A DNA stretch of 64,000 nucleotides from Nitrosopumilus cobalaminigenes. Lineage in GTDB: Archaea > Thermoproteota > Nitrososphaeria > Nitrososphaerales > Nitrosopumilaceae. The stretch covers positions 1,200,590-1,264,589 of the forward strand of contig NZ_CP026993.1 of assembly GCF_013407145.1 (NCBI RefSeq), given 5' to 3'. The notes under the pieces are model-generated. The model saw only the letters and a program-made list of their open reading frames with translations. It did not search any database and was not told the origin of the DNA. This document shows, one piece after another, positions 6,231 through 24,699 of this stretch (position 1 is its first letter; every line of letters begins with the position of its first letter). The position numbers and the translations under genes are program-made.

Positions 6231-6272
6231 TATTTCATATCAACCTCATTAAATTTGGTATGATTAACTAAA

Positions 6273-7586
6273 TCACTGAGCCTTAAGTAATAGAGAATTT
6301 AATTGAACCCTTTTTTCCAAGATATCAGTACGTAATTCACTAATATCTAAAGTAAGTTTTAGGACTTGTGGTTCTGTCTCAGAAGTTAGTTTTTTAGATA
6401 CAAAATCACCTAACATGCTTCTTTTATTTGCTAAAGACTCTTCCATTTCTTTTAACTGAGTTTCCAATGATTGGATTTGTGAAGATATTCCAGAATTACC
6501 TGAAATGGATGTTGCAATAGAGTCAGAATCTAATGCATTAATTCTCGTAATACCAACTTGGCAAGACTCTGGAATTATTCTATCAATTAATTTTACATCT
6601 ACTGAATCAGAATCAGAAGTTACTGTAATAATTGGCAATCTTACACTTTGTGTTCCAGCACAAGCTTCAAAAACGACATTAAATCTCTTGAGATCTGGAT
6701 TATTAGAACCAGTTGGAGATACACTATCAGTAACAGAGACTAGGTCAGAAGTCATTCCATCTAAAGGCTTTCCAGTAAGAGATTTTGGTAAATCAATTTT
6801 TGATGCTTTAACATTTGGAGGCACGTATAATACCATCTTATATCTTTGAAGTTGATTCTGTAGTTCTTTCAATTCTTTTTTCATAGATACGATTTCGCTA
6901 GTATTTTCAGGAATTATTGTTTTATCGTTTTTGTTTGGTAGTTTTTGTTTTGCTTCACTAATTTTACTTTTTAAATCTGCAATTTGAGTTTCAAGGGATG
7001 AGATTTTTTCTGTTACACCGCCTTTGTTAAGGAGTTTGGCAGAAATTGAATTAGGATCTGCAGCTTTGATTATTACAGAACTAGTATAACAAGATCCGGC
7101 TTTTAGAGGACTTCCCAATTTCACACTTTTTGTATCACTATCAGAAGTAACATAAATCTCAGGGGCTTTAACTAATTTGGTAGTTCCACAAGCTTCAAAG
7201 ATATAGGAATATCCACCAATGCTGGCTTTTGCTCCTGTGCTGGCTTGACCTTGTTGTTTCAAAGTTGCAATTTTTGTAATAGTTCCAGCAGATTCACCTT
7301 TCTTCAGTTTCTTATTTTTGATTTCCTCTAATTTTTTCTCAGAAAGTTGTTTTGCCCATCCATTTTCTGCAAGTTTTTCAGCAGTAGAAGGTTTTACGCA
7401 TGAGACTTTGTTTGAAGAGTTTTTAGTAATTTTTACAAAGCCTTCTGCACAAATTACTTGTTCTGCTGTAAAATCTAATTTCATTTGTTGTCTAGGACTA
7501 ATAACATCAGCAAATGATTGAGTAGGTAATGTTCCTGAAATTAATACTACGCCTAAAATTATTGCAAAAATGGAAGTTTTATTCAT
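6273..7586 (-). CDS. Secreted coiled-coil protein (tandem paralogue)
   Basis: 437 aa with signal peptide (to ~FADV). Same architecture as the neighbouring 447-aa protein: SPRQQMKLDFTAEQVICAEGFVK/ACVKPSTAEKLAENGW-type block, then two units of beta domain plus coiled coil. The beta units share the phrase TSDSDTKSVKLG / TSDSDSVDVKLI and a LxxxDxNSIxxKLLNxGG-like link. Conserved Cys pairs could form disulphides outside the cell. It is upstream of its paralogue on the same strand and may be co-transcribed. Function unknown. Confidence 0.7.
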   Translation of the reverse strand: MNKTSIFAIILGVVLISGTLPTQSFADVISPRQQMKLDFTAEQVICAEGFVKITKNSSNKVSCVKPSTAEKLAENGWAKQLSEKKLEEIKNKKLKKGESAGTITKIATLKQQGQASTGAKASIGGYSYIFEACGTTKLVKAPEIYVTSDSDTKSVKLGSPLKAGSCYTSSVIIKAADPNSISAKLLNKGGVTEKISSLETQIADLKSKISEAKQKLPNKNDKTIIPENTSEIVSMKKELKELQNQLQRYKMVLYVPPNVKASKIDLPKSLTGKPLDGMTSDLVSVTDSVSPTGSNNPDLKRFNVVFEACAGTQSVRLPIITVTSDSDSVDVKLIDRIIPESCQVGITRINALDSDSIATSISGNSGISSQIQSLETQLKEMEESLANKRSMLGDFVSKKLTSETEPQVLKLTLDISELRTDILEKRVQLNSLLLKAQ

Positions 7587-7651
7587 ATAGCATCTACCGT
7601 TTTTTCATCATTAAAAAACATTATCAGTGTACGATTTAATTCAGAATAAAA

Positions 7652-8959
7652 TCAATTTGACTCTTTTTGATCAAGTCCAATATTTTTTAGAAATTTATTG
7701 GATTCCATAAGAGCATGTTTTTTGATTTTTGTTCTATCTTCTTTTTTAATTGATTTTGAGGCTAAATGAAGCATCTCATCCATAAGGTGAATACCACCCT
7801 GAGCACCTTTTTTGAGTCCTAATTGGTACAATAGTGGCAATTTAGACATATCTGCAGTCACATTCATTTTGATTTCAGGCAAAGTGATTTTTTTATCAGG
7901 AGTCTCAATTTCGGTAAATTTGTCAACAACTTTGGAAAGTAATGATGCAAGATTTTCACTTAGATTTCTCTCAAGCTTTGTATTTTTTTCTTTTCTGGCA
8001 TTCATTACAATTCTTTTAATTTTTAGAATAGCTTGATTAGCATCTACAGAGTCAAAATCAGTTGAAGAAAGATCCAAGTTAAAATCATGCATGAATGCTT
8101 CTACAATAAATGAAATTGCTTCTTTTCTACATGATGCCTTTGTTGTTCCAAATGGGCAATTATCACAATTTGTTGTGAAATATCTAGTTCCTCTTTGACC
8201 AAAACTAGAAAGAACTATTTTATCTTGTTCACGTAGCTTTCCAATAGTTCTGGAAACAAGACCTTCATCAATTAATAATGCTTGAGAAATTTCCTGATTA
8301 GAATAAGAACCCTCATCAATTAATTCTAAAATTTCTTCTTCTAATTCCCCAGGGGAACGTCTAGATGGTTCATCAATAGCATCAGCTAAATAATGGGGTA
8401 CAACCTTATCATCTCTTTCATGATTAATTACAAATATTTTTCCATCATAATTTGCATTAAGTCCAGAGAGAGTTTCAGTTTTTAATATTTTTATAAGAAT
8501 TTTTTCAAGATTTTTAATTTTGAAATCTTGTAAAAGATCAGTTAATTTGTTAGTAGTAATTTTTAGATTATTTTTAGCAAAAATATGATACAATGCCCAT
8601 CTGATTTTTCTTTCATCACTTCTTTCAATTAATCTTAATAATCCACAAAAACTGTCAATTCTTTTCCATTTAATATCAGAAATTTCATCTTTGGAATTTT
8701 TGATGTACAGAACTGTATCCAATTCTTTTAAAAAAAGTTCAAACTGTTCAATCAATTCAGATTTTTTAATTTTTGAAACTTGTTTAATTTTTAAGCTTTT
8801 AGGGAGAAGAACAAACAGTTGTTCTTTTGATAATACTGTTTCATCTCGAAAAGACTTTGTTTCATATCTCATAAATTCAAAAAATTCCAGAGTTCTATTT
8901 TTGAGCGAAATAGGTGAAAATATTCTCAAACCAATCAGACTAGTAGGAGATAAGCCCAT
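7652..8959 (-). CDS. Winged-helix regulator with Cys-cluster sensor
   Basis: 435 aa. Helical N-terminal region (~1-190) of unknown family; a winged helix at ~206-262 (EEEILELIDEGSYSNQEISQALLIDEGLVSRTIGKL); then CDNCPFGTTKASC (~268-284), four cysteines in a spacing that could hold Zn or Fe-S; then a helical C-terminal part. It resembles MarR/ArsR-type regulators with a metal site, though I do not recognise a named family. A TATA box (TATATATG on the minus strand, 8980-8988) lies ~25 bases before this ATG and supports the long N-terminus. Role inferred: metal- or redox-responsive transcription factor. Confidence 0.7.
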   Translation of the reverse strand: MGLSPTSLIGLRIFSPISLKNRTLEFFEFMRYETKSFRDETVLSKEQLFVLLPKSLKIKQVSKIKKSELIEQFELFLKELDTVLYIKNSKDEISDIKWKRIDSFCGLLRLIERSDERKIRWALYHIFAKNNLKITTNKLTDLLQDFKIKNLEKILIKILKTETLSGLNANYDGKIFVINHERDDKVVPHYLADAIDEPSRRSPGELEEEILELIDEGSYSNQEISQALLIDEGLVSRTIGKLREQDKIVLSSFGQRGTRYFTTNCDNCPFGTTKASCRKEAISFIVEAFMHDFNLDLSSTDFDSVDANQAILKIKRIVMNARKEKNTKLERNLSENLASLLSKVVDKFTEIETPDKKITLPEIKMNVTADMSKLPLLYQLGLKKGAQGGIHLMDEMLHLASKSIKKEDRTKIKKHALMESNKFLKNIGLDQKESN

Positions 8960-10523: not shown

Positions 10524-11342
10524 TTATTTCCCAACATAGGCATAAACAGGATATACCTTTCCAGTTGTTGCAGATTTATAATTCCACTGGGTTTCATCTA
10601 AATCTAAATGAATAAAATATTCTTGAATTGAAGGATGAATTTTTTTATAAATATCATTTCCTATCGTAATTTGATCAGGATTAGACAAATTTTGTATTTT
10701 AGCTGCCATGCTAACAGAGGCTCCTAAAATATCCACATGAGCATCTTGTAAATCATCACCGTATCGCACAATAGTATTTTCTCCATAATCTATTCCAATT
10801 TTTACTTTTAATTCAGGCAAAATATTATTTTTCAAAATAGGATTAATTCCAACTTTAAGAACTTTCAGCATAGATTCAGCACATGTAACTGCTCTGCTTG
10901 CAACAGAGACAGACAATTCTTCAGCAACAAAATAACCTATTACCGCATCACCTACAAATTTTAACACAAATCCATCATGACGTTTAATCACATAAGCCAT
11001 CTCCTGAGCAAAAGTAGTAAAGATAGTTGCTAGTTTTTCCTTGGGTAAATTTAGAATCATAGATGTTGAGCCTACAAGATCAATGAATATTACTGCCATA
11101 GGCAAGCTTTGCAATACTCTTTTTCTCAAAAATTGTTCAGAATCTTCTGTTACAGTAGAGTATGCAGAATCACCATTAAGAGATTTTGAAACTCGAACTT
11201 GAATTTCTTCAATTAATGTATCAGAGTCAATAATTTTCTCAGTTCCTCGCCCCATCATCATATCTACAATACTTGGAGTTTTAGGAGATAGGAGATTTGT
11301 TACACCTTGTTTTGCAATGTCTTTTACAGAATCGTTATCCAA
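10524..11342 (-). CDS. Class III adenylate/guanylate cyclase domain protein
   Basis: 272 aa. A cyclase homology domain spans ~75-265: VIFIDLVGST carries the first metal Asp and KFVGDAVIGYF the second; IGIDYGEN and GASVSMAAKIQNLSNPDQITIG follow as in the family. The N-terminal ~70 residues are helical with no membrane segment. It is predicted to make cAMP or cGMP, or may be a degenerate nucleotide sensor. It has its own short gap to each neighbour, so its partners are not obvious. Confidence 0.85.
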   Translation of the reverse strand: MDNDSVKDIAKQGVTNLLSPKTPSIVDMMMGRGTEKIIDSDTLIEEIQVRVSKSLNGDSAYSTVTEDSEQFLRKRVLQSLPMAVIFIDLVGSTSMILNLPKEKLATIFTTFAQEMAYVIKRHDGFVLKFVGDAVIGYFVAEELSVSVASRAVTCAESMLKVLKVGINPILKNNILPELKVKIGIDYGENTIVRYGDDLQDAHVDILGASVSMAAKIQNLSNPDQITIGNDIYKKIHPSIQEYFIHLDLDETQWNYKSATTGKVYPVYAYVGK

Positions 11343-11460: not shown

Positions 11461-12783
11461 TTATTTCTTTTCTATAGGTTCTTCAGTTTTTATTCTCTTG
11501 TCAAAGAATAAACATGCTGTAAGATCTCCCCCCACGTTAACCATTGTTCTAGTCATGTCTAAAATTCGATCTACTCCCAATAACAAAACAATTCCTATTA
11601 CAGGTACTCCAGATGCTAAGAGAATAGAAGAGAGAATTACAATACCTGCTCCAGGAGCTGAAGGGGCACCAACTGATGCCATAAGAGCAGTGACAGCAAT
11701 TAAAATGATTGTTGTCGGGGCCAGTTCTATATTGAATAATTGAGCAAGGAAGAATACTGCTACTATTTGATAAAGTGCAGTACCATTCATGTTAATAGTG
11801 GCACCAAGAGGGATTACAAATTGTGAAACTGCTGGTTTAATTTTCATCTTTTCTTCTGCTGTTTTTAAAGAAACTGGCATTACTGCTGCAGAACTAGAAG
11901 TTGAAAATGCAAGTAACAGAGGATCCTTCATCATTTTTAATGTAGAGATTAGAGGTTTGTTTGTAAATATTTTGATAATTATTATGTAAACTAACATCAT
12001 TATGAAAAGACCAATTACAACTGTGCCCATGTATGTGCCAAGTCCTACTAATGCATCAAGTCCTACTTTAGAAACAATATCTGCCATTAATCCAAACGCC
12101 GCAAAAGGTGCCAATCTCATTGCCCAAGATACAACCTTCATGGTTAATTCCTGAACAGATTCCAATATCTCCACTATCGGTTCAGATTTTTTCTTTGGTA
12201 GTGATATCATGGCAACTGCGATAAACAATGCAAAAATGATTATACTCAACATCTCTCCAGACATGAAAGAAGTTAGAGGATTACTTGGAATTATGCCAAT
12301 TATGTGTTCAGGAATATCTAGGAAATTAAATTCTACATTTTCCACTAAAGGTACAGTTGTATCAATTTCTAAACTCTCTAACATAGATTCACTGTCAACA
12401 AAACTTCCAGGTTCAATAGTAGAAGCTACAAAGACACCAATACACAATGCAATAATTGTAGTTACAACAAAAAATGCCGCAACAGAAATTCCCATAGTAC
12501 GAAGCTGCTCTACAGTACCTGCAGACAACAAACCTCTAATTATTGATGCAAAAATTAATGGAACTATAATCATCTGGATGATTTTGAGAAAAAGATGGGC
12601 AGGTATAGACAACCAAGTAGTAATAATTCCACTAGTATCTTTGTCTACAATTCCAATTTCAGGTCCTAGAAAAACTCCCAAAATCAATCCTAAAAATAAT
12701 GCAAATAGAACTTGAGCCCATAATTTTTTTTTAACTAGATAAGTTACTTGAGGAGTAGGAAATTTGAATGATTTTATCACCAT
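11461..12783 (-). CDS. Dicarboxylate/amino-acid:cation symporter (DAACS family)
   Basis: 440 aa with eight or more hydrophobic segments. Family signatures include IIQMIIVPLIFASIIRGL in the first half, the serine-rich hairpin AFSTSSSAAVMPVSL, the NMNGTALYQIVAVFFLAQ motif (cation/substrate site) and the GAPSAPGAGIVILSSIL hairpin. It belongs to the GltP/DctA group, importing acidic amino acids or C4-dicarboxylates with Na+ or H+. Uptake of organic acids suggests mixotrophic potential or osmolyte recovery. Length is typical for the family. Confidence 0.93.
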   Translation of the reverse strand: MVIKSFKFPTPQVTYLVKKKLWAQVLFALFLGLILGVFLGPEIGIVDKDTSGIITTWLSIPAHLFLKIIQMIIVPLIFASIIRGLLSAGTVEQLRTMGISVAAFFVVTTIIALCIGVFVASTIEPGSFVDSESMLESLEIDTTVPLVENVEFNFLDIPEHIIGIIPSNPLTSFMSGEMLSIIIFALFIAVAMISLPKKKSEPIVEILESVQELTMKVVSWAMRLAPFAAFGLMADIVSKVGLDALVGLGTYMGTVVIGLFIMMLVYIIIIKIFTNKPLISTLKMMKDPLLLAFSTSSSAAVMPVSLKTAEEKMKIKPAVSQFVIPLGATINMNGTALYQIVAVFFLAQLFNIELAPTTIILIAVTALMASVGAPSAPGAGIVILSSILLASGVPVIGIVLLLGVDRILDMTRTMVNVGGDLTACLFFDKRIKTEEPIEKK

Positions 12784-13531: not shown

Positions 13532-14056
13532 TTATTTTTTAGATTTGAAATATTTTGCTTTAGATGTTGTTCCATCAGGAAAAGTATGTCCTGCTGAAAG
13601 CACAATACCTGTTGGGATATCTGCTCCATCCAATACAACAGTATCTTTCTCAAGCACAACATCATCGCCTATTTTAACAACATTTCCAATTACTGCTCCT
13701 CCTTCAACAACTACTTTATCGCCAAAAATACAATCATCTTCAATTTTGACTTTTTTTTCAATTACACAATGTTCTCCCATTTTGACATTATTACCCACCA
13801 TACACTTCTTTTCAATTACAGTATTGTTGCTTAAAATACAATTATTGCCAACAGTAGATTTTTTTTCAATTACACAACCATCTCCCAATGTTACTTTATT
13901 GCCAATTATGGATTTTTTTCCAATGAAAACTTTTTTTCCAAAAATACAATCATCGCTCACTTGGACTTCTTTTTCTATCTCAATTGAATCATCCATTTTG
14001 ACATTATTGCCAATGACTGCAGTAGAATGTATGTTAGCCATTACATAATTATCCAT
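13532..14056 (-). CDS. Left-handed beta-helix (hexapeptide-repeat) protein, long copy
   Basis: 174 aa built almost wholly of hexapeptide repeats ([IV]GxxVxx / VIEKK pattern, about 20 or more turn-strands), e.g. VIGNNVKMDD, CVIEKKSTVG, CIFGDKVVVEG. There is no N-terminal catalytic domain and no obvious metal-binding His triad of gamma-carbonic anhydrase. The end (IPTGIVLSAGHTFPDGTTSKAKYF) matches the neighbouring 131-aa paralogue. Probably a trimeric beta-helix; acyltransferase activity cannot be assumed. Confidence 0.8.
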   Translation of the reverse strand: MDNYVMANIHSTAVIGNNVKMDDSIEIEKEVQVSDDCIFGKKVFIGKKSIIGNKVTLGDGCVIEKKSTVGNNCILSNNTVIEKKCMVGNNVKMGEHCVIEKKVKIEDDCIFGDKVVVEGGAVIGNVVKIGDDVVLEKDTVVLDGADIPTGIVLSAGHTFPDGTTSKAKYFKSKK

Positions 14057-14151: not shown

Positions 14152-14547
14152 TCAGGATGGATGGTATTTTGCTTTAGATGTGATTCCATCTGGGAATGTC
14201 TTTCCTGCAGGTAAAACGGTTCCAGTTTCTATGATTGCATTATCTAATACAGTTGTGTCTTTTTCTAATATGATATCATCACCCATTTTGACATTATTGC
14301 CAATGACTGCATGACCCTCTACCACAACTTTGTTACCAAATTTACAATCGTTGCCTACATTGACTTTTCGTTCAATTACACAACCATCATCCATGGTAAC
14401 ACCATTACCAATAACTGCATGTTTTTCAATTACAACTTTGTTTCCCAATACACAGTTATCTCCTATTTTGGCACCACCTTCAATTACAGTACTTTCTTGC
14501 ATTTTAACGCCATTTCCTATAATTGCACTTGGATCTACATTTGTCAT
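14152..14547 (-). CDS. Left-handed beta-helix (hexapeptide-repeat) protein, short copy
   Basis: 131 aa, same hexapeptide pattern and same C-terminus (TVLPAGKTFPDGITSKAKYH) as the gene 95 bases downstream, but several coils shorter. The N-terminus (TNVDPSAIIGNGVKM) is also alike (ANIHSTAVIGNNVKM). The pair results from tandem duplication followed by gain or loss of coils. Function unknown; the simple repeat architecture suggests a structural or small-molecule-binding role. Confidence 0.8.
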   Translation of the reverse strand: MTNVDPSAIIGNGVKMQESTVIEGGAKIGDNCVLGNKVVIEKHAVIGNGVTMDDGCVIERKVNVGNDCKFGNKVVVEGHAVIGNNVKMGDDIILEKDTTVLDNAIIETGTVLPAGKTFPDGITSKAKYHPS

Positions 14548-14677: not shown

Positions 14678-15448
14678 TCAAAGTTTTGAAAAGAAAAGGT
14701 CAAGTGAATTTGCAAATTGCTTGTTTAGTTTTTGAAGATGATTAGGATCAACGGTAAGTGTATTTTCATCAAACCATGGAGATGACAAATACAAAGATCT
14801 ATTCATCTCAACTTGAATCCAAGGAAGAGGCTTATTTCCATATGTTTTCGTGATATGGCCACCATGAAATGGGTCATTTAGGGATATGTCATCTCTGTCA
14901 ATAAAATAGGATTTGGATATAGAATCAGCTAATAGTTCAATCATTTCTTGAGAAGATGTTTGTCCATCATTATTTGAGATACAAAACAATGGTCTTTTTG
15001 ATTGTGTTTTGTCAGGAGAAAAATAAGGTGCAGTTGCTGCCATGGAATGACAATCTAAACATAATTGTAAATCTAATTCATCTAGACTTTTTTGGATTGC
15101 CTGGTGATATGGGTTATAGTACAATTCAATAAGCATTGTTTTTAGTGAATCATCTGGTTCTTTTCCATTTGTGTAAATGGGTTTATCATAACACGTCTTA
15201 CTCTTAATTAATCCGTCAGGATTATTTGGAGGCATATCATCTATAGAACGATTAAGATCCACAAAGGCTCTTGCTATATTGGTTTTAATCACACGTTGAA
15301 CTTTATCTCCTAAATCATAAAGTTCAATTACAAAAGGATCAGAATCATCAAACAAATCTTTGTTTGTGATTGACAAATGTCCTTCAAGTTCAGAAGGTTT
15401 TCTTGTTCCTCCATGAGGTATTGATAACAATATTGGAAGTTTAGTCAA
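14678..15448 (-). CDS. N-formylglutamate amidohydrolase-family protein
   Basis: 256 aa. Family motifs: LLSIPHGGTRKP near the N-terminus (metal His), AFVDLNRS, LDLQLCLDCHSMAATAP (second His region), and HGGHITKTYG...WIQVEMNRSLYL at the end. Enzymes of this group hydrolyse N-formylglutamate or related N-acyl amino acids with a divalent metal. It overlaps the preceding gamma-glutamyltransferase gene by four bases (last gene of the operon), suggesting successive steps acting on glutamyl compounds. Confidence 0.82.
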   Translation of the reverse strand: MTKLPILLSIPHGGTRKPSELEGHLSITNKDLFDDSDPFVIELYDLGDKVQRVIKTNIARAFVDLNRSIDDMPPNNPDGLIKSKTCYDKPIYTNGKEPDDSLKTMLIELYYNPYHQAIQKSLDELDLQLCLDCHSMAATAPYFSPDKTQSKRPLFCISNNDGQTSSQEMIELLADSISKSYFIDRDDISLNDPFHGGHITKTYGNKPLPWIQVEMNRSLYLSSPWFDENTLTVDPNHLQKLNKQFANSLDLFFSKL

Positions 15449-17073
15449 TCTAATCCTTCTGCAGTTCCGTCACGACGAACTTCTGCAACTCCTTGAAATC
15501 CTTCACCTGTTTGACATTTCATGACAGCATGAATTGCCCCTAAAAAGAAAGAATATCTTTCCCGAAGATCTATTTTGTATCCCATTTTTTTAAGATGCTT
15601 AATAATTTCAACACCAGAAACGTCATCTTCTAAACTAATTGTGCCATCAACACCACAATGAAGCCTTGGCTTAGTCATGGCAAGGTCTATTGAATTATCT
15701 CTATCAACAATTCTTGAAATAAACTGGCTCAATACTGAAAATATACGTGCACTACCAGGAGTCCCCATAACAATCCATGGTTCATGATTATAAAATAAAA
15801 TTGATGGACATACAGATGTCCAAGGGATAGCATTTGGGCGTAAATAGTAAGGATGATTTGCATTTTTCAACTCAAATGCAGACATGTAATTGTTGTACAA
15901 AAATCCCAATCCATCAGCTGCGGCTTTTGAACCATAAACTAGTTCAATTGATTGAGTGATACCTACAGCATTTCCTTCATCATCCATTACTGAAAGATGT
16001 GTAGTGTCTTCAGTATCAAGTGATTCTCGTAATGGAAGTTCAGGATCAACAGAGTCTCGGATAGATTTTGAAAGAGATTTAGCAAAACTTCTACTGAGAT
16101 GTGTTTTATCATTAACTTGATGGTATGTCCTTGGATTAAATCGACGTTGTTCTCTATACAATAATGCTTTACGAAAGGATTCAGCTACAAAGTGAAATGA
16201 TTTTGGGGAACTAGCATTCAGAAATTTTTTTGTGAGATTGTTAAGCATCATTAATACCAATAACATCGTAGGACCAGCTGCAGGTGGAGGTACAGTCTCC
16301 ACACGAATTCCACGATATCTTTTACTAATCACTTTTCTTTCAATTGGGAGTGGAATGAATGAGAGATCTTCTTGTCTTAGATACCCATCATTTAGTCTCA
16401 TATCTTTATCAATTAATTTTGCAATCAATCCATGGTAAAATGAGCGATAGCCATATGTTGCCAATTCTTTCAAAGTATGAGCTAAGTCATCCTGAACGAA
16501 GTTATCTCCTACATCGTAAGGAACTACACCATCTTTAAGAAAATATTTTGCTCCAGATTTTGATGGAACTTTAAAGAAATTTTTAAGATGTTTTTCTTGT
16601 AATTCATGTTGTAATTTTGTAATTTTATATCCTCTCCTTGCAATACGAATAGAAGGTTTTACAATAGTTGACCAATCTAACCTACCATATCTTTCATTCA
16701 GATATCCCAAAGTTGCCACAGTACTTGGAACTGTGGTTGCCTTGTATCCTATCAGTCCATGCGATTTTCTTGCAAAATTTGAAATATGTGCAAATGAAGG
16801 AGCCCTACTAGAACCATCCACAGCCACTGTTTTTCCATCCACATGAACAATTGCCATAGATTGACCACCTATTCCTGAAGCTTGTGGTTCACACACACCC
16901 AAGGCTAAAGCAGTTGCACAAGCAGCATCTACAGCATTACCGCCTTTTTTGAGCATTTCAACTCCAGCTTTTGTAGCATTAGGAAACGCAGATGAAACCA
17001 TTCCTTTTTTTGAAACAGAACATTTTTTGTTTGAAGTTGGTTTAAATGAATTCTCTATTTTTTCAATGTCCAT
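15445..17073 (-). CDS. ggt: Gamma-glutamyltransferase
   Basis: 542 aa, near family length. GNAVDAACATALALGVCEPQASGIGG near the N-terminus and the nucleophile region TTHLSVMDDEGNAVGITQS match the family; Thr357 aligns with the catalytic Thr exposed by self-cleavage. There is no signal peptide, so unlike many bacterial homologues it should act in the cytoplasm. It transfers or hydrolyses gamma-glutamyl groups. Fifteen bases separate it from the K+ channel gene, and it overlaps the amidohydrolase gene by four. Confidence 0.92.
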   Translation of the reverse strand: MDIEKIENSFKPTSNKKCSVSKKGMVSSAFPNATKAGVEMLKKGGNAVDAACATALALGVCEPQASGIGGQSMAIVHVDGKTVAVDGSSRAPSFAHISNFARKSHGLIGYKATTVPSTVATLGYLNERYGRLDWSTIVKPSIRIARRGYKITKLQHELQEKHLKNFFKVPSKSGAKYFLKDGVVPYDVGDNFVQDDLAHTLKELATYGYRSFYHGLIAKLIDKDMRLNDGYLRQEDLSFIPLPIERKVISKRYRGIRVETVPPPAAGPTMLLVLMMLNNLTKKFLNASSPKSFHFVAESFRKALLYREQRRFNPRTYHQVNDKTHLSRSFAKSLSKSIRDSVDPELPLRESLDTEDTTHLSVMDDEGNAVGITQSIELVYGSKAAADGLGFLYNNYMSAFELKNANHPYYLRPNAIPWTSVCPSILFYNHEPWIVMGTPGSARIFSVLSQFISRIVDRDNSIDLAMTKPRLHCGVDGTISLEDDVSGVEIIKHLKKMGYKIDLRERYSFFLGAIHAVMKCQTGEGFQGVAEVRRDGTAEGLD

Positions 17074-17088
17074 TTTCTGATACCTCCC

Positions 17089-17892
17089 TTATTCGTGGGA
17101 TATATCCTTTCCACAATGAGGACATGTATTGTTAGTTTTTGCTTTCTTTTTTCTAAGTTCTTCAGTAAATGCAGATGCCATAATTCCTGTAGGAATTGCA
17201 TATACTGCAATTCCAATTACTGCAACTCCTGCAGCAATTAATTTCCCAGGGATCGTAATAGGATAAACATCACCATAACCTATTGTAGTAAGAGTAACTA
17301 TACCCCACCACATAGATGCAGGGATGCTAGAAAAAACTTCAGGTTGTGCTTCATGTTCTGCATGATACATCAAACTAGATGCAAAAATCAATACAATAAA
17401 TAAAATAAAAAATGCAACTGCCAAATCGCCTGCTTTTGATTTGAAGACTTGTCCCAATGTTTGCATTGGATCAGAATATCTTGCAAGTTTGAAGAGTCTA
17501 AACAATCTCAATAGTCGAATTATTCTGATAAAGCGAGTATCTGTAACTACAAATGGTAAGAAGAAGGGAAGTATTGCAGCTAAATCAACTAACATCATTG
17601 GAGTGAATATGAATCGGAGTATTCCAAACTTTGAATTGTTATATTTTGGGTTTAGTTTACAAACTATAATTCTTCCAATGTATTCACCTGTAAAAATAAT
17701 AATAGAAAACACTTCAAATGGCGTAAAGAGATAACCGTATTCATCTAAAACAGACTCTTCTGTTTCTATAATTACTACAATAACATTTACAGTAATCAAG
17801 CCGATAATGAAAAATTGAAAAGCTTTTGTAATTTTATCATTAGTTGTACCTTCAAGGATTTCATATGTTCTTTGCATTACCTTGTTGGTCAT
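17089..17892 (-). CDS. Voltage-gated potassium channel (Kv-type, six TM)
   Basis: 267 aa. Six hydrophobic segments; an S4-like helix with regularly spaced arginines (RFIRIIRLLRLFRLFKLARY) and the selectivity filter TLTTIGYGD (~residue 203). The C-terminus has CPHCGKD, which may bind zinc. Channels of this type set membrane potential or release K+ after osmotic change. Located in an operon with Mg2+/Co2+-type transporters, 60 bases from the upstream gene and 15 from ggt. Confidence 0.92.
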   Translation of the reverse strand: MTNKVMQRTYEILEGTTNDKITKAFQFFIIGLITVNVIVVIIETEESVLDEYGYLFTPFEVFSIIIFTGEYIGRIIVCKLNPKYNNSKFGILRFIFTPMMLVDLAAILPFFLPFVVTDTRFIRIIRLLRLFRLFKLARYSDPMQTLGQVFKSKAGDLAVAFFILFIVLIFASSLMYHAEHEAQPEVFSSIPASMWWGIVTLTTIGYGDVYPITIPGKLIAAGVAVIGIAVYAIPTGIMASAFTEELRKKKAKTNNTCPHCGKDISHE

Positions 17893-17952
17893 AATTTACC
17901 CTCAATTTGTTGAAAAATTTCAAAAAAATCCATGTTTTTTACAGCAAACAGA

Positions 17953-19599
17953 TTATAGCCATCTCTTTTTCTTAAACCAAGCAACCATCGCTCCAGATAT
18001 AATCGCCATTACAATTAACATAGCAAAATAACTGCCCTCCCATTCCAGTTCTGGCACATATGAAAAATTGGTTCCATAGAGACCAGCTATGAACGTAATA
18101 GGAATGAAAATTGCTGCAACTATAGTCAAAGTTTTCATGACCTCATTCATTCTATTACTCACACTGGATAGGTAAGTGTCAAGCATACCTCCAATCACAT
18201 CTCGTAATCCTTCAATAGAATCAGTTACCTGAATAGTATGATTGTATACATCACGAAGATACGTCCTAGTATTATCAGATATCAGTACTGTAGATTCCCT
18301 CTCCAACGAATTGATAATTTCTCGTCCAGGCCAAATTGCTTTTCTTAATGCAATCATTCTACGTTTTAGTGTTTGAATTGTTTGCATTGTTTCAGGTGTA
18401 GGATTTTGCATCAATACTTCTTCTAAATCCTCAGTAAGATCACCAATTTTCTCTAACACCAAGAAATAACTATCAATGATTGCATCAATAAGTGAATAAG
18501 CAAGATAATCACTTTTTAGTTTTCTAATACTACCAGCATTATCTCTTAATCGTTTTCTAATCTCATCAAAAAAGTCATCCTCAATTTCTTGGAAAGTCAA
18601 AAGATGGTTTTCTGCCAACACAATAGAAATTTGTTCTAAATCTAATTTTCCTGTTTGAGAATCATAGTGAGGCATTTTCAACATTATCAATATATGATCA
18701 TCAAATATTTCAACAGAAGGTCTTAGCTCGGTATTCATAATGTTTGATTGATGAAGTGAATGAATGCCAAAATTATCTCCAAAAGTTTTGATTACGTTTG
18801 GATCATGAACTCCAATTATATTTACCCATGAAACATTAGGTTTGTTTTTAGATTCTAAACATTCTTCAAATGAAGCATTGGTAATTTCATTAATTTTTTC
18901 AGAATCATATTCAATTAAATTTACAGTTACATTATCTACTTTTTGTTCTCCAACATGGATTAAAGCACCAGGGCGTTGACCAATTGTATCAGATATTGTA
19001 GTTTTCTGAGTTTTAGTTTTGTTTCTAATACCCATAATACCAGCAATATTTTGTAATCCTAAATCATCTGTTATTTCTTTAACTTTTGATGTCTTGCTTG
19101 CTACACCCACAATAATGAATCCAGCTATAATTGAGAAAATTATACTTACAATTAGCGGTGTGAAATCGCCAATAATTGCAGCTTGGTAAATTGCACTTAC
19201 ATCAGTTTTAGAACCAGTTTGAACAATCAAACCAATAATTGTATCAAGTAAGAAAAATAGAAAAGAGATAGAAGCGCCAATAATTATTGCAGTTACCGCC
19301 GTGATTTTTGGAGGAATTTCAATATTTTTTTCACCTTTGTATGGAGAGAGGTATTTTTTGTAGCGGATTATTAACAATGCCATCACGGTAATGATGATTG
19401 TGGATAGTATCCACCAAACTACAAGCCAAGGACCCTGTTGAGATTCAATTTGTTCAACTCCAGATATTAAATCTTGAATGTTTCCTGTCAAAGGTAAAGA
19501 AAGTAATGATGTAGCAATTCCAATAACAATTTGATACAAAAAAGCAAAAGTGAATCCATAGACGAGTCTATTGATAACTATTCCAACGGTGTCTCTCAA
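17953..19599 (-). CDS. CorA-like divalent cation transporter with N-terminal membrane extension
   Basis: 548 aa, far longer than the usual ~320. The C-terminal ~320 residues are CorA-like: acidic domain (VSWVNIIGVHDPNVIKTFGDNFGIH...), long helices, and two terminal TM helices with AGLYGTNFSYVPELEW. The canonical GMN filter is GTN here. The first ~190 residues add about four TM helices (~10-35, 60-80, 95-122, 145-168) and a linker. Five bases from the CNNM-type gene. Specificity (Mg2+, Co2+, other) cannot be stated. Confidence 0.85.
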   Translation of the reverse strand: MRDTVGIVINRLVYGFTFAFLYQIVIGIATSLLSLPLTGNIQDLISGVEQIESQQGPWLVVWWILSTIIITVMALLIIRYKKYLSPYKGEKNIEIPPKITAVTAIIIGASISFLFFLLDTIIGLIVQTGSKTDVSAIYQAAIIGDFTPLIVSIIFSIIAGFIIVGVASKTSKVKEITDDLGLQNIAGIMGIRNKTKTQKTTISDTIGQRPGALIHVGEQKVDNVTVNLIEYDSEKINEITNASFEECLESKNKPNVSWVNIIGVHDPNVIKTFGDNFGIHSLHQSNIMNTELRPSVEIFDDHILIMLKMPHYDSQTGKLDLEQISIVLAENHLLTFQEIEDDFFDEIRKRLRDNAGSIRKLKSDYLAYSLIDAIIDSYFLVLEKIGDLTEDLEEVLMQNPTPETMQTIQTLKRRMIALRKAIWPGREIINSLERESTVLISDNTRTYLRDVYNHTIQVTDSIEGLRDVIGGMLDTYLSSVSNRMNEVMKTLTIVAAIFIPITFIAGLYGTNFSYVPELEWEGSYFAMLIVMAIISGAMVAWFKKKRWL

Positions 19600-19604
19600 T
19601 TTAG

Positions 19605-20873
19605 TTACTCCTCATCTAAAATTCGCTGAATTTTAATAGATGTAGGCTTGTTTTTTTCTACTTGCTCGATTTTTATTGATAGAGAGCTAATTTTCACAAC
19701 ATCGCCAACTTTGGGGATATCATGGAGTTTTTCATGCAACAGGCCATTTAATGTGGAATAGTCATCAGAATACTGAATATTGGATTGGAATATTTTGTTA
19801 ATCTCATCTATCTCAATATCCCCATCAGTCATTATTGTATTCTCATCAATTTTTTTAAATAATTCAATATCAGGATCTGTCTCATCATGAATTTCACCTA
19901 CTATCTCTTCAATAAGATCTTCCATAGTTACGATTCCTTCTACACCATTAAATTCATCTACAACTATTGCCATGTGTGTATTTTTAAATTGCATTTCTTT
20001 GAGAAGAGTGCTCATTTTTTTCTCCTGTGAGACATAGATGGGCTCACGTACAAAATCTTTAATTTTCTTCTTGGATAATTCACTATCTTTTAGATGCTTT
20101 AGTAAATCTCTTACATGTAAAATTCCAATTATATCATCATAATTTTTTCCATAAATTGGAATTCTTGAATGTCCACTTTGATGAATTGTATCTGCAGCAT
20201 CAAATAATTCCACATCACCTTGTAAGCTAAACATCTTAGTTCGTGGAGTCATCACAGATCTTATTATGTTGTCATCAAATTCTAATGCACTGTGAAGCAT
20301 ATCTCGTTCAGATTTTTCTAATGCTTCATCTCTGTGACCTTGATCAATAATTCCTTTGATTTCCTCACCAGTTAATGCTGGTGGACGATAACCACTGCCA
20401 GTAAGTTTTATGATACCTCTAGTAATTCTTTCTAATACCCAAACTACTGGATAAAGTACATAGCTGAAAGTTAACAGTATGCCACTACATCTTAGCGCAA
20501 CTTTTGTAGCATTTGCATTACAATATGTTTTAGGAGTAACTTCACCAAAAATAATAATCAAAAATGTCATTATTCCTACTGCAATTCCTAATCCACTATC
20601 ACCAAATAGTTTTATTGCAACAACTGTAGCCAATGCAGAGGATCCAATATTTACTAAATTATTTCCAAGATTTACACTTGACATCATCCAACCAGGATTG
20701 GAATGTAATTTTTGAAGTGTCTTGGCACCTTTAACTTTCTCCTTTACTAATCGCTCTATTGTTGCTTGGCTAGTACCTACAAGTGCAACTTCTAAACCAC
20801 TAAAAAATCCTGAAAGACCGATTAATGCAGCAAGTGCGGCTAGTTCGTATTCTAAACTCATTTCTGAGCACAC
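19605..20873 (-). CDS. CNNM/CorC (DUF21-CBS-CorC_HlyC) membrane protein
   Basis: 422 aa. DUF21 membrane domain (~1-190; LIGLSGFFSGLEVALVGTS, then NPGWMMSSVNLGNNLVNIGSSALAT), two CBS motifs (~200-330; SVMTPRTKMFSL and MAIVVDEFNGVEGIVTMEDLIEEIVGEI) and a C-terminal CorC_HlyC domain. This family takes part in Mg2+ (or Co2+) efflux and ion homeostasis. It overlaps the stop of the ATP-grasp/peptidase gene by 16 bases, so translation may be coupled. Confidence 0.9.
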   Translation of the reverse strand: MCSEMSLEYELAALAALIGLSGFFSGLEVALVGTSQATIERLVKEKVKGAKTLQKLHSNPGWMMSSVNLGNNLVNIGSSALATVVAIKLFGDSGLGIAVGIMTFLIIIFGEVTPKTYCNANATKVALRCSGILLTFSYVLYPVVWVLERITRGIIKLTGSGYRPPALTGEEIKGIIDQGHRDEALEKSERDMLHSALEFDDNIIRSVMTPRTKMFSLQGDVELFDAADTIHQSGHSRIPIYGKNYDDIIGILHVRDLLKHLKDSELSKKKIKDFVREPIYVSQEKKMSTLLKEMQFKNTHMAIVVDEFNGVEGIVTMEDLIEEIVGEIHDETDPDIELFKKIDENTIMTDGDIEIDEINKIFQSNIQYSDDYSTLNGLLHEKLHDIPKVGDVVKISSLSIKIEQVEKNKPTSIKIQRILDEE

Positions 20874-23026
20874 CTAAAGATAACAGATGCCAGTAATGCA
20901 GATCGTTCTATGATGCTATCATGAAGAATGTATTCTTTAGATGTACGATAATGATTCCCTAGTGGTCCAAATCCATCCAATGCAGGAAGTCTAATTGGAA
21001 CATTACTTATGTCAGAAGATAGCAATTGAGAATGTTTTTTAATTTTGATTTCATGTTTTTTAGCTAAATCTTCTACTAATTTGTAGAATTTGGTATCAGA
21101 TGGTTCCTCCAATACAGGACGCCTAGTTTGAATTTTGTTTACTGCGACATCTAACTTTTTAGAATTACTTTCTCGTTTTTTCATAACAGTTTTAATTTTT
21201 GAATCTAGTAATGCTCCGAGCTTTTCTGTTTTGTAACTGCAAGTTAGTGAAATTGTGGCATAATTTGGAGTATGACCATGAGAACCTTGAGCTACAACAG
21301 CCGTGGTACTCAATCTATAGTTTTTTTCATCTCTTGAGATTTTATCAAGTGCAGCTAATTTTTTTGCTAACACAGGTATTATACCATGAATATTGGAATT
21401 TGATTCATCACCTGTAGAAGTAAATCTAACTTCATAATCACTTCTGCCATAACATGTTGTAATAATTCCGCCATCTACACTGCCAGATTTTAATCCAAGA
21501 ATGTATTTTGAATTTTTGGAAATTTCTTCAATCAAGGTGCTACTGTGTCGTCCACCCAAGCTATCATCAGTTGTAAGTAACACAGCACATTTTATTTTTT
21601 TGAGTTTTTTTGAAAATCTTAATGCGTGTAATGCACCCAACATTACTACTAATCCACCTTTACTTTCAGCAGTACCTGAACCTAGAATTTTATCACCAGT
21701 TTCAGAATAAGGTATCAAGTCATTTGGACCATAATGGGTATCAAGGTGAGAAATGAATAGAACATCATTATGAGAATCTGAATGGTTTTTAAAATAACGA
21801 AAGTCTCCAACGTCAGATTGTTTGTAAACTTGTTCACTGAAGCCAAGATGAGCAAATCGTTTAGACAATTTAGAGCCTAATTGATTAACATTTTCAAGAT
21901 TGTATACGTGTGTATTTAGATTCACATAATCTTTCAAAGTTTCTTTTAGACTCTGTAAATGGCTTCTCAAATAGGTTCTAGCAACAACACGTAATGGTTG
22001 CGTCAAATCAACTTCATCTGTTTGAGGTTGATTAGTAGAGCCAAAGTATCGAATTACTGCAACATCTAAAATTTTATTGACTAGAGATTCATACGTATAG
22101 CCGGCAGTTTTTCCAGCATGAAAAAAGGAACCACCTGTTCCAAGACTAGCCATTGAATTTAATTCAAGAATGTAAAGATTCTCATCTTTATCCATTCGAA
22201 AATCTACTCTAGTGTAATCATTTAATCCTAAAGCTGAAAATGCATCTATGCACATTTGTTTCATCTCAGCTTCTTTTTCTTTGGATAATTTTGCAGGACA
22301 TGTTTTTTCGACTCCACCTTTTTTCTTTTTATCAGTAATAGTTTGTATTTGATCAGGATGATCCAGATTAATTTCGACTATTGGAAGAACTTCTATGTTA
22401 GGTTTATTTCCCAACAACCCTACAGCAAATTCTCGTCCAGAAATGAATTGTTCTACTAAAATATCTTGTTGAAATTTTTCAATTTGAACTTTAACTGCAG
22501 CCCTTAGATCATCCCAATTATCTACAACTTCCATTCCCATGGATGTAGATTCCAGTTTAGGCTTTACAATTACAGGGAATATCAAATCATCATGTTTATC
22601 TTCAGGAGTTCTAAATACCCAAAAACCAGGAGTAGGAATTTTATTTTTCTGCAAAACAATTTTTGTCATCACTTTATCTTGAACAATTGCGTGACCGGCG
22701 GGACCTGAACCAATGTATGGAATTCCAAGCATCTCCATCATTGCAGGAATGTGTGTGTATCTATTCTGACCTTGAATACCATATGCCATGTTAAAGACCA
22801 TTCCAGGATTTTCACCAGCAACTACTTTTGGCATGAATTCTTTTAATTCATCAGCAAGATGAATATCTCCTTCAACTACTTTGACAGAATGCCCACCTTT
22901 TTCTAATGCTCTAGCAACTCTTTCAACAGCTTTTGCACTGTAATGTTCTTTTGTGGTCATTCCAAAAACATTGATTACATCATTTGGATCTATCTTATTT
23001 TCATTATAGATTAAAGCAACTTTCAT
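20858..23026 (-). CDS. ATP-grasp ligase (D-Ala-D-Ala ligase-like) fused to M20 peptidase-like domain
   Basis: 722 aa. Residues ~1-335 are a D-Ala-D-Ala-ligase-type ATP-grasp enzyme (GIPYIGSGPAGHAIVQDKVMTK, FPVIVKPKLESTSMGMEVV, VEQFISGREFAVGLLG, YTRVDFRMDKDENLYILELN). Residues ~355-722 are an M20 domain (FISHLDTHYGP ~427; GTAESKGG ~453; TTDDSLGGRHS ~485; GNHYRTSKEYI ~692). Positions normally D-x-K-G and D-E-E are changed to E-S-K and D-D-S, so peptidase activity is doubtful. First gene of the operon; TATA-like GTATAAAC at 23051-23059 is ~29 bases upstream. Confidence 0.88.
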   Translation of the reverse strand: MKVALIYNENKIDPNDVINVFGMTTKEHYSAKAVERVARALEKGGHSVKVVEGDIHLADELKEFMPKVVAGENPGMVFNMAYGIQGQNRYTHIPAMMEMLGIPYIGSGPAGHAIVQDKVMTKIVLQKNKIPTPGFWVFRTPEDKHDDLIFPVIVKPKLESTSMGMEVVDNWDDLRAAVKVQIEKFQQDILVEQFISGREFAVGLLGNKPNIEVLPIVEINLDHPDQIQTITDKKKKGGVEKTCPAKLSKEKEAEMKQMCIDAFSALGLNDYTRVDFRMDKDENLYILELNSMASLGTGGSFFHAGKTAGYTYESLVNKILDVAVIRYFGSTNQPQTDEVDLTQPLRVVARTYLRSHLQSLKETLKDYVNLNTHVYNLENVNQLGSKLSKRFAHLGFSEQVYKQSDVGDFRYFKNHSDSHNDVLFISHLDTHYGPNDLIPYSETGDKILGSGTAESKGGLVVMLGALHALRFSKKLKKIKCAVLLTTDDSLGGRHSSTLIEEISKNSKYILGLKSGSVDGGIITTCYGRSDYEVRFTSTGDESNSNIHGIIPVLAKKLAALDKISRDEKNYRLSTTAVVAQGSHGHTPNYATISLTCSYKTEKLGALLDSKIKTVMKKRESNSKKLDVAVNKIQTRRPVLEEPSDTKFYKLVEDLAKKHEIKIKKHSQLLSSDISNVPIRLPALDGFGPLGNHYRTSKEYILHDSIIERSALLASVIFRCAQK

Positions 23027-23066
23027 AATATTTTCCTATATTTTTTCTAGGGTTTATACTATTACA

Positions 23067-23231
23067 TCAAGACTGGGCAGATTTTTTCTGATTCCAAGCC
23101 TGTTCATTAATCTCATGGCATTTGCAGTCAGAAGCTTTACCCTTGCAATTTTTTTGGTGTAGTGTGTAATCACATTTGTTGCAGTCAGGATCTCTCCAAC
23201 TTGCTTGATTTCCACAGTTTGGACATCTCAT
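23067..23231 (-). CDS. Small zinc-binding protein (54 aa)
   Basis: 54 codons from ATG at 23231. Contains CPNCGNQASW near the N-terminus, then CNKC, and a second group NCKGKASDCKCH: eight cysteines and histidines, enough for two small zinc sites. No catalytic domain. It lies between the ATP-grasp operon (start 41 bases beyond its stop) and the HD-domain gene, on the same strand, and could be transcribed with the operon. Reading frame, start and stop are clean; function unknown. Confidence 0.7.
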   Translation of the reverse strand: MRCPNCGNQASWRDPDCNKCDYTLHQKNCKGKASDCKCHEINEQAWNQKKSAQS

Positions 23232-23379: not shown

Positions 23380-24699
23380 TTAAAGAGTTACTCTATAGTA
23401 GTCTAGTTTTTCAGGATCTAATTGCTGAACAAATTCAATTTTGTCTTCACGATTAATTCTATTTTGAATAACTTCACGTAATTGCAATCCTGTCAAATAG
23501 ACATATTTTTTCTCTTTTGCAAATTTTCTAAACACTTTTCTCATTTTAGAGCCACCACCATGACCCCAATAACCTGCCTTGATTGCCAAAGGTTCTAAAA
23601 ATACAGAGTTATTTTTGCCAATGTTTTCGTCTTTGATATCTTTGGGGAGAGAATATTCTTCAAGTGGCGCACCTTTAGCAAACCCGATAATTTCTCCTGT
23701 ATCTGAACCTACTCTCAAAGTCACAAGAATTGTTTTTGGGTTGTTTAGTGATTCAAAAAATGTTGTTTTTTTGAACTGTAAAGGATCTGGCAATTCATCA
23801 AATATATCAAAAAGAATTTCTCCAAATTGACGATCATCTGTTATGTTTTCGATATTTGCTACAAGCTCAATTTGCTCGTAAGATATTGCTGCCTTTACTT
23901 CAAGTTCTTTTTGACGTAATTTGTAAAACATCATAACATTTTCCATGAATTTTTTTCTCATACTTTTTGGTATGGAACGCATGACTTTGTCTGCCATTTC
24001 ATGTTCGTCATTTAGTAATGTTTCAAAAAAGAGAACACTACGTCTAATCAAATATTCAGGATCCCATCCTAAAGAATGAGAATTTTTCTTTGCAAGTTCA
24101 ATGGCGTCAAGAAAATCTCCTAAAGCATAAGCTCCCATTCTGTCTGCGACAGACATGAACCATCCTAAATACAAATAATGTTTCTGCTTTTCTTCATCAT
24201 CAGAATATTTTGATTGGGAGAAATGATTTCGAAGCAAGGGTTCTAATTCACGTCGTTTTAATTTCCACGGATAAGTGGTTCTCAATATCAGTAAAGCAAC
24301 TAAATGAGGATCAATTTCTGCTTTCTTGAATAACATTTGAAGTTTATTATCAGATACTACAAATTCAGATGCTTCAATTTCACGAGGTTTATCTTGTTCT
24401 TTGTCAGGATCATAATCGTGAAATAATGCAGCTACAAACAAATGTTTGAAATCCTCAGATGAGATAAGTTCTTTGAATTCTGAGCCTCTTGCTGCAAGTA
24501 ATGTGTTGTTTGTAACTACCAGTTCATGACTCAAATTATGGTATCCGTAATAATTTCTATTCAGATTTAATTCTCCAAATTTTTCTAAACAATAATCTAA
24601 AAGTTCAACATAATGAGAATCTTCAAGTTTTTCTTTTCGTAGTAACTCTAGGATAATATCTCGTAATTCTGCAATGTTTGGGATTTTAGTACTAGACAA
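23380..24699 (-). CDS. HD-domain protein with C-terminal GNAT-like domain
   Basis: 439 aa. Residues ~35-260 hold an HD-type metal-dependent phosphohydrolase region: YYGYHNLSHELVV, then AALFHDYDP (the HD pair) and a later FMSVADRMGAY with Asp. Residues ~310-430 look like a GNAT acetyltransferase core (LVTLRVGSDTGEIIGFAKG, EPLAIKAGYWGHGGGSKMRKVF). The GHGGGSKM stretch fits an acetyl-CoA pyrophosphate loop. The pairing is unusual; substrates are unknown. An alternative is a second, non-catalytic sensor domain. Confidence 0.7.
   Translation of the reverse strand: MSSTKIPNIAELRDIILELLRKEKLEDSHYVELLDYCLEKFGELNLNRNYYGYHNLSHELVVTNNTLLAARGSEFKELISSEDFKHLFVAALFHDYDPDKEQDKPREIEASEFVVSDNKLQMLFKKAEIDPHLVALLILRTTYPWKLKRRELEPLLRNHFSQSKYSDDEEKQKHYLYLGWFMSVADRMGAYALGDFLDAIELAKKNSHSLGWDPEYLIRRSVLFFETLLNDEHEMADKVMRSIPKSMRKKFMENVMMFYKLRQKELEVKAAISYEQIELVANIENITDDRQFGEILFDIFDELPDPLQFKKTTFFESLNNPKTILVTLRVGSDTGEIIGFAKGAPLEEYSLPKDIKDENIGKNNSVFLEPLAIKAGYWGHGGGSKMRKVFRKFAKEKKYVYLTGLQLREVIQNRINREDKIEFVQQLDPEKLDYYRVTL

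Follow-up and report, generated by a model that had tools for sequence, protein, structure and literature searches.

Six adjacent genes of the archaeon Nitrosopumilus cobalaminigenes, encoding enzymes for making and breaking amide bonds alongside ion channels, raise the question of what process could call on proteins of such different biochemistry. The genes lie in a 64,000 nt stretch of contig NZ_CP026993.1 (positions 1,200,590–1,264,589; assembly GCF_013407145.1), here called the window, where they form a minus-strand run of open reading frames (ORFs) at 14678–23026. In order, they encode a fusion of an ATP-grasp ligase and an M20 peptidase-like domain (AG-M20; AG in gene orders), a CNNM cation transport protein, a CorA-like protein, a voltage-gated-type K+ channel, a protein related to gamma-glutamyltransferase (GGT) and a hydrolase of the FGase family (FG in gene orders). 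Every one of the six passed the curated Pfam cut-off in a Pfam profile search. An earlier, sequence-only reading had placed all six on one strand, separated by gaps of −16, 5, 60, 15 and −4 nt, and re-measurement reproduced these coordinates and gaps. The six genes probably form one transcription unit.

The same reading had treated the six genes as a single unit serving one process. The neighbourhood is real, but the six-gene arrangement is not the primitive one. Judging from gene order, the operon is made up of two merged modules, an older trio of enzymes (AG-M20, GGT and FGase) and a CNNM–CorA–K+ channel cassette. That the parts serve one process is well supported, both by the conserved neighbourhood and by the repeated occurrence of the enzymes beside non-homologous transporters. 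We put the chance at about one in two (0.5) that this process is the ATP-driven formation of an amide-type solute, together with its turnover, tied to osmotic and Mg2+/K+ balance.

Distribution and gene order in the archaea

When the six proteins were searched against 121 genomes of the same order, the AG-M20 fusion, the GGT subfamily and the FGase were found in exactly the same 11 genomes, all from one family (hypergeometric P ~8e-16, a value that assumes independent genomes, which these are not). The CorA-like and K+ channel genes were also found without the trio (G080 and G084), and CNNM homologues are widespread. The GGT subfamily is confined to the same family in a 398-genome sample of the phylum, and is carried by 14 of 28 genomes from the same genus.

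Gene order was compared in relatives, as the earlier reading had proposed. The full six-gene order of the window genome (G000) recurs in two other species (G105 and G093), and a five-gene order without CNNM was found in at least six further loci; genomes with this order include G120, G114, G099 and G051. In G024, which belongs to another genus, the genes are re-ordered as AG-GGT-FG-CNNM-CorA. They are spread over 26–30 kb on a single strand in G108 and G117, and dispersed in G090. Two further loci, L049 and L054, carry CNNM-CorA-K as a cassette of its own, some kilobases from the trio, and this separate cassette shows the modularity of the operon.

In some Nitrosopumilaceae, a GNAT and Amidohydro_2 gene pair lies directly upstream of AG or GGT (L034:12698-14154, L038:11935-13382, L039, L041, L051 and L055). 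The pair has no match in the genome of the window, and was set aside as accessory rather than core.

The enzyme trio in bacteria

The trio is not limited to archaea. When 84,980 genomes were scanned with two peptide patterns taken from the fusion alignment, a search that is incomplete by design and gives a lower bound, at least 78 AG-M20 loci were detected. Nearly all of the archaeal matches were titled Nitrosopumilaceae. Full-length fusions were found in deeper Nitrosopumilaceae, Nitrospinota, marine Nitrosomonas (N. marina, N. aestuarii and Nm51), Binatota, Gemmatimonadota, Latescibacterota, Chloroflexota, Fibrobacterota, Myxococcota and Coatesbacteria, with identities of 36–55% outside Nitrosopumilus. 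A GGT gene directly follows AG in 35 of the 37 bacterial loci that include enough downstream sequence, and in 33 of the 37 it is accompanied by FGase. The gaps between the bacterial genes are mostly −4 to +3 nt. As the trio is conserved as an operon across bacteria, we conclude that it represents the core unit. The ion genes would most simply have come to lie between its first and second genes by insertion.

Cultured bacterial carriers of the trio are Nitrosomonas species from marine or brackish habitats. In the fusion tree, Nitrosomonas rows appear in three places among Nitrospinota, a placement that fits transfer among marine nitrifiers. A few rows, with Woeseiaceae and Planctomycetota titles beside the Nitrospinaceae locus L105, are likely bin contamination, and phyla were therefore counted conservatively.

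Ion-transport genes of the window

The CNNM protein has the CNNM transmembrane domain and the CBS pair, with PF01595, PF00571 and PF03471 all above cut-off. Its matches to the NCBIfam models for the PaeA polyamine exporter and CorC fall below cut-off. The gene occupies the same slot in G105, G093 and the fragments L056 and L057. The CorA-like protein scores 303.8 bits against TIGR00383 (cut-off 200.75), and the window protein and its relatives share a conserved extra N-terminal helical domain of approximately 200 aa, with about four helices in an AlphaFold model that is of low confidence in this region. The pore signature is GTN, not GMN, in the window and in nearly all of the full-length archaeal (Nitrosopumilus) copies; GMN is found in L038. 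The replacement may point to a changed ion selectivity. In the K+ channel, the selectivity filter TIGYGD is intact and the S4 arginines are present (RFIRIIRLLRLFR).

The trio recurs beside unrelated transporters

The tie between the enzymes and K+/Mg2+ balance, which the earlier reading had suggested from the window, recurs in bacteria with non-homologous transporters. Bacterial trio neighbours that recur are MgtE, a soluble MgtE_N/CBS protein, MscS-type channels, CDF, CNNM, CorA and NhaP. Co-directional transporter genes within approximately 210 nt of the trio were seen in archaea and in five bacterial phyla or lineages: Binatota (FG>MscS>MgtE_N>MgtE>CNNM), Nitrospinota (FG>MgtE in L079 and L087), Nitrosomonas (MscS>AG in L092, L095 and L096), Gemmatimonadota (FG>CorA in L090) and Chloroflexota (MgtE>AG in L118).

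Pfam families were tallied without preselection for 141 genes close to the trio in 16 dereplicated non-archaeal loci, giving 206 families. CBS ranked first, with eight occurrences, and MgtE_N second, with seven; MgtE was next, with four, and MscS domains (3+3) were among the leading 25. From whole-genome counts (41 matches in 56.5 Mb), approximately 0.1 MgtE_N would be expected where seven were observed. These seven come from about five loci, some of them related, and a Poisson value would overstate their independence. The filling of the same place by different transporter families is the strongest argument for a single process shared by the enzymes and the ion transporters.

The predominance of Mg2+ transporter families (MgtE, CorA and CNNM) among the neighbours, together with nearby CDF cation efflux genes and the sub-threshold PaeA and CorC matches of CNNM, could also be taken to mean that what the ligase makes is bound or carried by the transporters, for example as an amide or polyamine conjugate exported by a PaeA-like CNNM or as a Mg2+-binding compound. 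The role would then be in metal or polyamine homeostasis rather than osmotic. We think this improbable, as MscS channels and the K+ channel also recur and better fit turgor, and most of the merged operons lack CNNM.

Equally improbable, in our estimate, is a mobile stress island, in which enzymes and channels are biochemically unlinked and have been co-inherited for use in the same habitat. The patchy presence within the genus, the separation and rejoining of the modules, the presence in the region of Usp, NhaP and SDF genes, and a trio tree that mixes Nitrospinota, Nitrosomonas and others would all be consistent with such an island. However, the insertion between AG and GGT keeps its order and co-direction in many species, and pairing with unrelated transporters has arisen convergently in five bacterial phyla.

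Several observations weigh against an amide solute coupled to ion balance. No matching transporter was found in the available flank of 18 of the 33 bacterial loci that are 12 kb or longer, including those of Nitrosomonas marina and Nitrosomonas aestuarii, and the two modules are 5–40 kb apart in several Nitrosopumilus. Roughly half of the sampled genomes of the same genus lack the trio, which is therefore dispensable. Because GTN replaces GMN, Mg2+ transport by the archaeal CorA-like copies is not assured.

Further genes were also seen near the trio. Circularly permuted ATP-grasp, Alpha-E and, in some loci, proteasome-like genes form a separate peptide-type system beside the trio in Nitrospinota and Nitrosomonas (L101, L102, L103 and L105). 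RimK, Zn_protease (RimB-like) and AstE/AspA genes lie near the MgtE or MscS genes of L100, L101, L092 and L094.

A ligase fused to an inactive peptidase domain

AG-M20 contains Dala_Dala_lig_C and Peptidase_M20 domains, with PF07478 and PF13535 above cut-off. In the ATP-grasp motif alignment, the Mg-ATP residues R273, D275, E288 and N290 are invariant in the family. The best Foldseek matches of its AlphaFold model (pLDDT 84.9) were carboxypeptidase G2 (CPG2), which ranked first, and DdlA/DdlB. The Pfam matches and the invariant residues place AG-M20 in the ATP-grasp amide ligase class, and the ligase is probably active.

AG-M20 shares with the Ddl family its fold, the ATP-grasp core, an acidic residue near the N-terminus and the R/D/E/N motifs. 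However, it lacks the GGxSxEhxVS motif and missed all of the listed Ddl cut-offs, the best curated model giving 170.1 bits where 243 are needed. By inspection, Lys stands in place of the omega-loop Tyr; the protein is fused to a degenerate M20 domain, and its archaeal hosts lack murein. A D-Ala-D-Ala ligase was rejected on the curated score and the omega-loop Tyr.

Trimming by the M20 domain, as proposed in the sequence-only reading, did not survive comparison with CPG2. The overall fold is shared, but the zinc ligands and the catalytic acid have been lost: CPG2 residues H112, D141, E175, E176, E200 and H385 correspond to H427, E454, D488, S489, K513 and R694, the last equivalence having been set with the intact L117 M20 as reference. 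His427 is the sole metal or catalytic residue retained in this protein. The metal site is degenerate in all 76 of the 76 homologues inspected, in which the pattern of loss is kept or further advanced, and an active metallopeptidase was rejected. In L117, an intact M20 gene adjoins AG and provides a built-in control for the degenerate domain. The fused domain most likely binds substrate or product, or holds the dimer together.

GGT-like and FGase-family enzymes

The GGT-like protein belongs to the gamma-glutamyltransferase fold family (PF01019), with which it shares a catalytic Thr at the N-terminal nucleophile (Ntn) position and an S-S-like oxyanion region. Thr357 aligns with T391 of Escherichia coli GGT and is conserved across the subfamily. 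In the E. coli enzyme, R114, N411, Q430 and D433 bind the alpha-amino and alpha-carboxyl groups of the glutamyl moiety. All four have been replaced here, by S88, E377, Y396 and A399 respectively (the last is Ala or Ser in the subfamily), and the replacement signature DGSSR.PS / TQSIE / YNNYM is near-universal in the subfamily. In L086, a canonical GGT next to the trio has R, N and D in place and is without the signature. The GGT-like protein also falls below the TIGR00066 equivalog cut-off (345.9 against 357.85 bits), and no obvious signal peptide was seen by eye. With the glutamyl-binding residues lost, the gamma-glutamyl recycling proposed for this gene is not supported, and the gamma-glutamyl cycle was rejected as the default role.

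The third enzyme, previously labelled simply an amidohydrolase, is indeed from a hydrolase family, more precisely that of N-formylglutamate amidohydrolase (FGase). It is the single PF05013 protein in the genome (157.4 bits against a gathering score of 28.9). It shares family and the PHGG, DLNR and DCHSM motifs with the N-formylglutamate deformylase HutG, but is far below the HutG equivalog cut-off (TIGR02017; 104.6 against 278.75 bits). The conserved inactivity of the M20 domain and the altered GGT pocket are a warning that the names assigned automatically to the trio proteins (gamma-glutamyltransferase, D-Ala-D-Ala ligase, peptidase and N-formylglutamate deformylase) are misleading.

Three of the four domains of the trio are drawn from hydrolase families that act on glutamate amides (M20/CPG2, GGT and FGase), many of the carriers are nitrifiers, and the cluster of some Nitrosopumilaceae also includes the GNAT and Amidohydro_2 genes. 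On these grounds, the trio could be a salvage or detoxification route that recovers amino acids and ammonium from amino acids or peptides with N-acyl or other modifications, the channels being neighbours by chance or through a shared promoter. We consider this unlikely, though less so than the metal or stress-island explanations. A pure salvage route would not need the ATP-grasp ligase, yet no other part is conserved as well. The M20 peptidase is inactive, and the repeated pairing with non-homologous Mg2+ and mechanosensitive transporters in several phyla would be left unexplained.

In G117 (L041:14469-16101 with L042:15677-17302), a GGT copy beside FGase contains an in-frame stop or frame break, and a second, intact GGT follows AG, as if one gene had replaced the other inside the cluster.

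A possible mechanism and its relation to known systems

If the operon does direct the making and turnover of an amide-type solute, the ATP-grasp domain would spend ATP on linking an amine to a carboxylate, the latter probably an amino acid. The GGT-like Ntn hydrolase and the FGase-family hydrolase would act on this compound by cleaving or transferring acyl groups, and the cell would thus be able both to make and to dismantle it. The CNNM, CorA-like and K+ channel proteins of the second module would move Mg2+ or other divalent cations and K+. Expressed from one transcript, the two modules would allow a marine cell to tune an amide- or dipeptide-type solute and its main cations in concert when salt or turgor changes. 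The product is presumably a solute, and its role is likely osmotic.

A parallel in logic is found in the operons for N-acetylglutaminylglutamine amide (NAGGN), an osmolyte made by an amide ligase with a peptidase-type partner and linked to osmotic stress. The likeness, an amide ligase and a peptidase-type partner in one operon, is in logic only and serves as a working analogy. The enzyme families differ, and the window operon has no amidotransferase; among the six genes and their close neighbours, no set of an asparagine-synthetase-like amidotransferase with an acetyltransferase/ATP-grasp synthetase was found. The RimK/RimB and Rlo operons of Pseudomonas also pair an ATP-grasp ligase with a hydrolase, as the trio does, and the Rlo operon has been linked to hypo-osmotic stress tolerance (PMC12239564). 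However, their hydrolases are retropepsin-like and not of the GGT or FGase type (PMC12239564), and the RimK and Zn_protease found near some Nitrospinota trios are separate genes.

A link to ectoine synthesis was considered and rejected, as one-to-one co-occurrence was not seen. Of the 11 trio genomes, 4 encode ectoine synthase; in the genome of the window it was not found, except as a weak 28-bit partial match, and the trio is therefore not tied to ectoine.

Our search of the openly licensed literature found no publication on this gene combination, and its novelty is provisional. A broader proposal, which we make tentatively and hold to be less probable than the coupling itself, is that the trio represents a horizontally mobile, previously undescribed amide-solute system of marine microbes, in which the ligase, a repurposed GGT and the FGase build and break down a new compatible solute and share their regulation with Mg2+, K+ or mechanosensitive channels. 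Marine nitrifiers drive nitrogen cycling in the ocean, and not all of them carry a recognisable osmolyte pathway. A trio common to nitrite oxidisers and to both archaeal and bacterial ammonia oxidisers offers a lead, open to test, towards an undescribed metabolite and towards the way in which such organisms couple organic solutes with ions.

Promoter region and neighbouring genes

The features of the operon are listed in Table 1. Two of them, a short zinc-ribbon ORF and a TATA-like element upstream of AG-M20, had been missed in the sequence-only reading. The zinc-ribbon ORF is kept upstream of AG in many Nitrosopumilus, among them the window and nine other loci (L032–L036, L049, L051, L055 and L056). 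A LysW-like carrier was rejected: the LysW-type C-terminus is absent by eye and the ORF is conserved in some of the archaeal loci only, leaving it as a possible accessory. TATAAA/TATAAATA-type elements also precede AG in L032, L035, L036 and L051. In the loci compared, no comparable TATA-like element was evident just before GGT or FGase. Scans for sigma-70 promoters, the wrong type for archaea, and for terminators gave chance-level results.

Table 1. Features of the AG-M20 operon and its upstream region in the window
Feature	Position	Strand	Basis
AG-M20: Ddl-like ATP-grasp amide ligase (residues ~1–330) and degenerate M20/carboxypeptidase G2-like domain (~345–722)	20858..23026	-	Pfam/NCBIfam, AlphaFold, Foldseek, motifs
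CNNM cation transport protein: cyclin M transmembrane, two CBS, CorC_HlyC	19605..20873	-	Pfam; gene position in relatives
CorA-superfamily channel with extra N-terminal domain, GTN for GMN	17953..19599	-	Pfam/NCBIfam, AlphaFold helices
Voltage-gated-type K+ channel, six helices, filter TIGYGD, S4 RxxRxxRxxRxxR	17089..17892	-	Pfam Ion_trans, motifs
GGT-family Ntn hydrolase, catalytic Thr357, glutamyl-recognition residues replaced	15445..17073	-	Pfam G_glu_transpept, alignment to E. coli GGT
FGase-family (PF05013) amidohydrolase	14678..15448	-	Pfam
Zinc-ribbon-like ORF, 54 aa, upstream of AG-M20, possible accessory	23067..23231	-	Translation; conservation
TATA-like element 26 nt before AG-M20 start codon, candidate operon promoter	23053..23058	-	Sequence

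Further upstream, a GNAT-like gene of 439 aa (23380–24699) has no relative in the other loci and was placed outside the system. Downstream of the operon, two short minus-strand ORFs (14152–14547 and 13532–14056) encode proteins made up almost entirely of hexapeptide (LbH) repeats. This family recurs as one to three tandem copies beside the trio or beside second GGT copies in L032, L042, L047, L048 and L054. A gene for an SDF glutamate/dicarboxylate symporter lies a few kilobases downstream (11461–12783, minus strand), and has relatives near the trio in L034, L038, L040, L042 and L074, a proximity that we count in favour of the solute model. A protein with an adenylate/guanylate cyclase catalytic domain (10524–11342) has no relatives in the neighbouring loci. 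Three proteins of approximately 435–447 aa are encoded on the minus strand at 4887–8959, two with an NCBIfam WING-49 domain and one without a family. Proteins of this set (families F10 and F11) recur near trio loci in many Nitrosopumilaceae.

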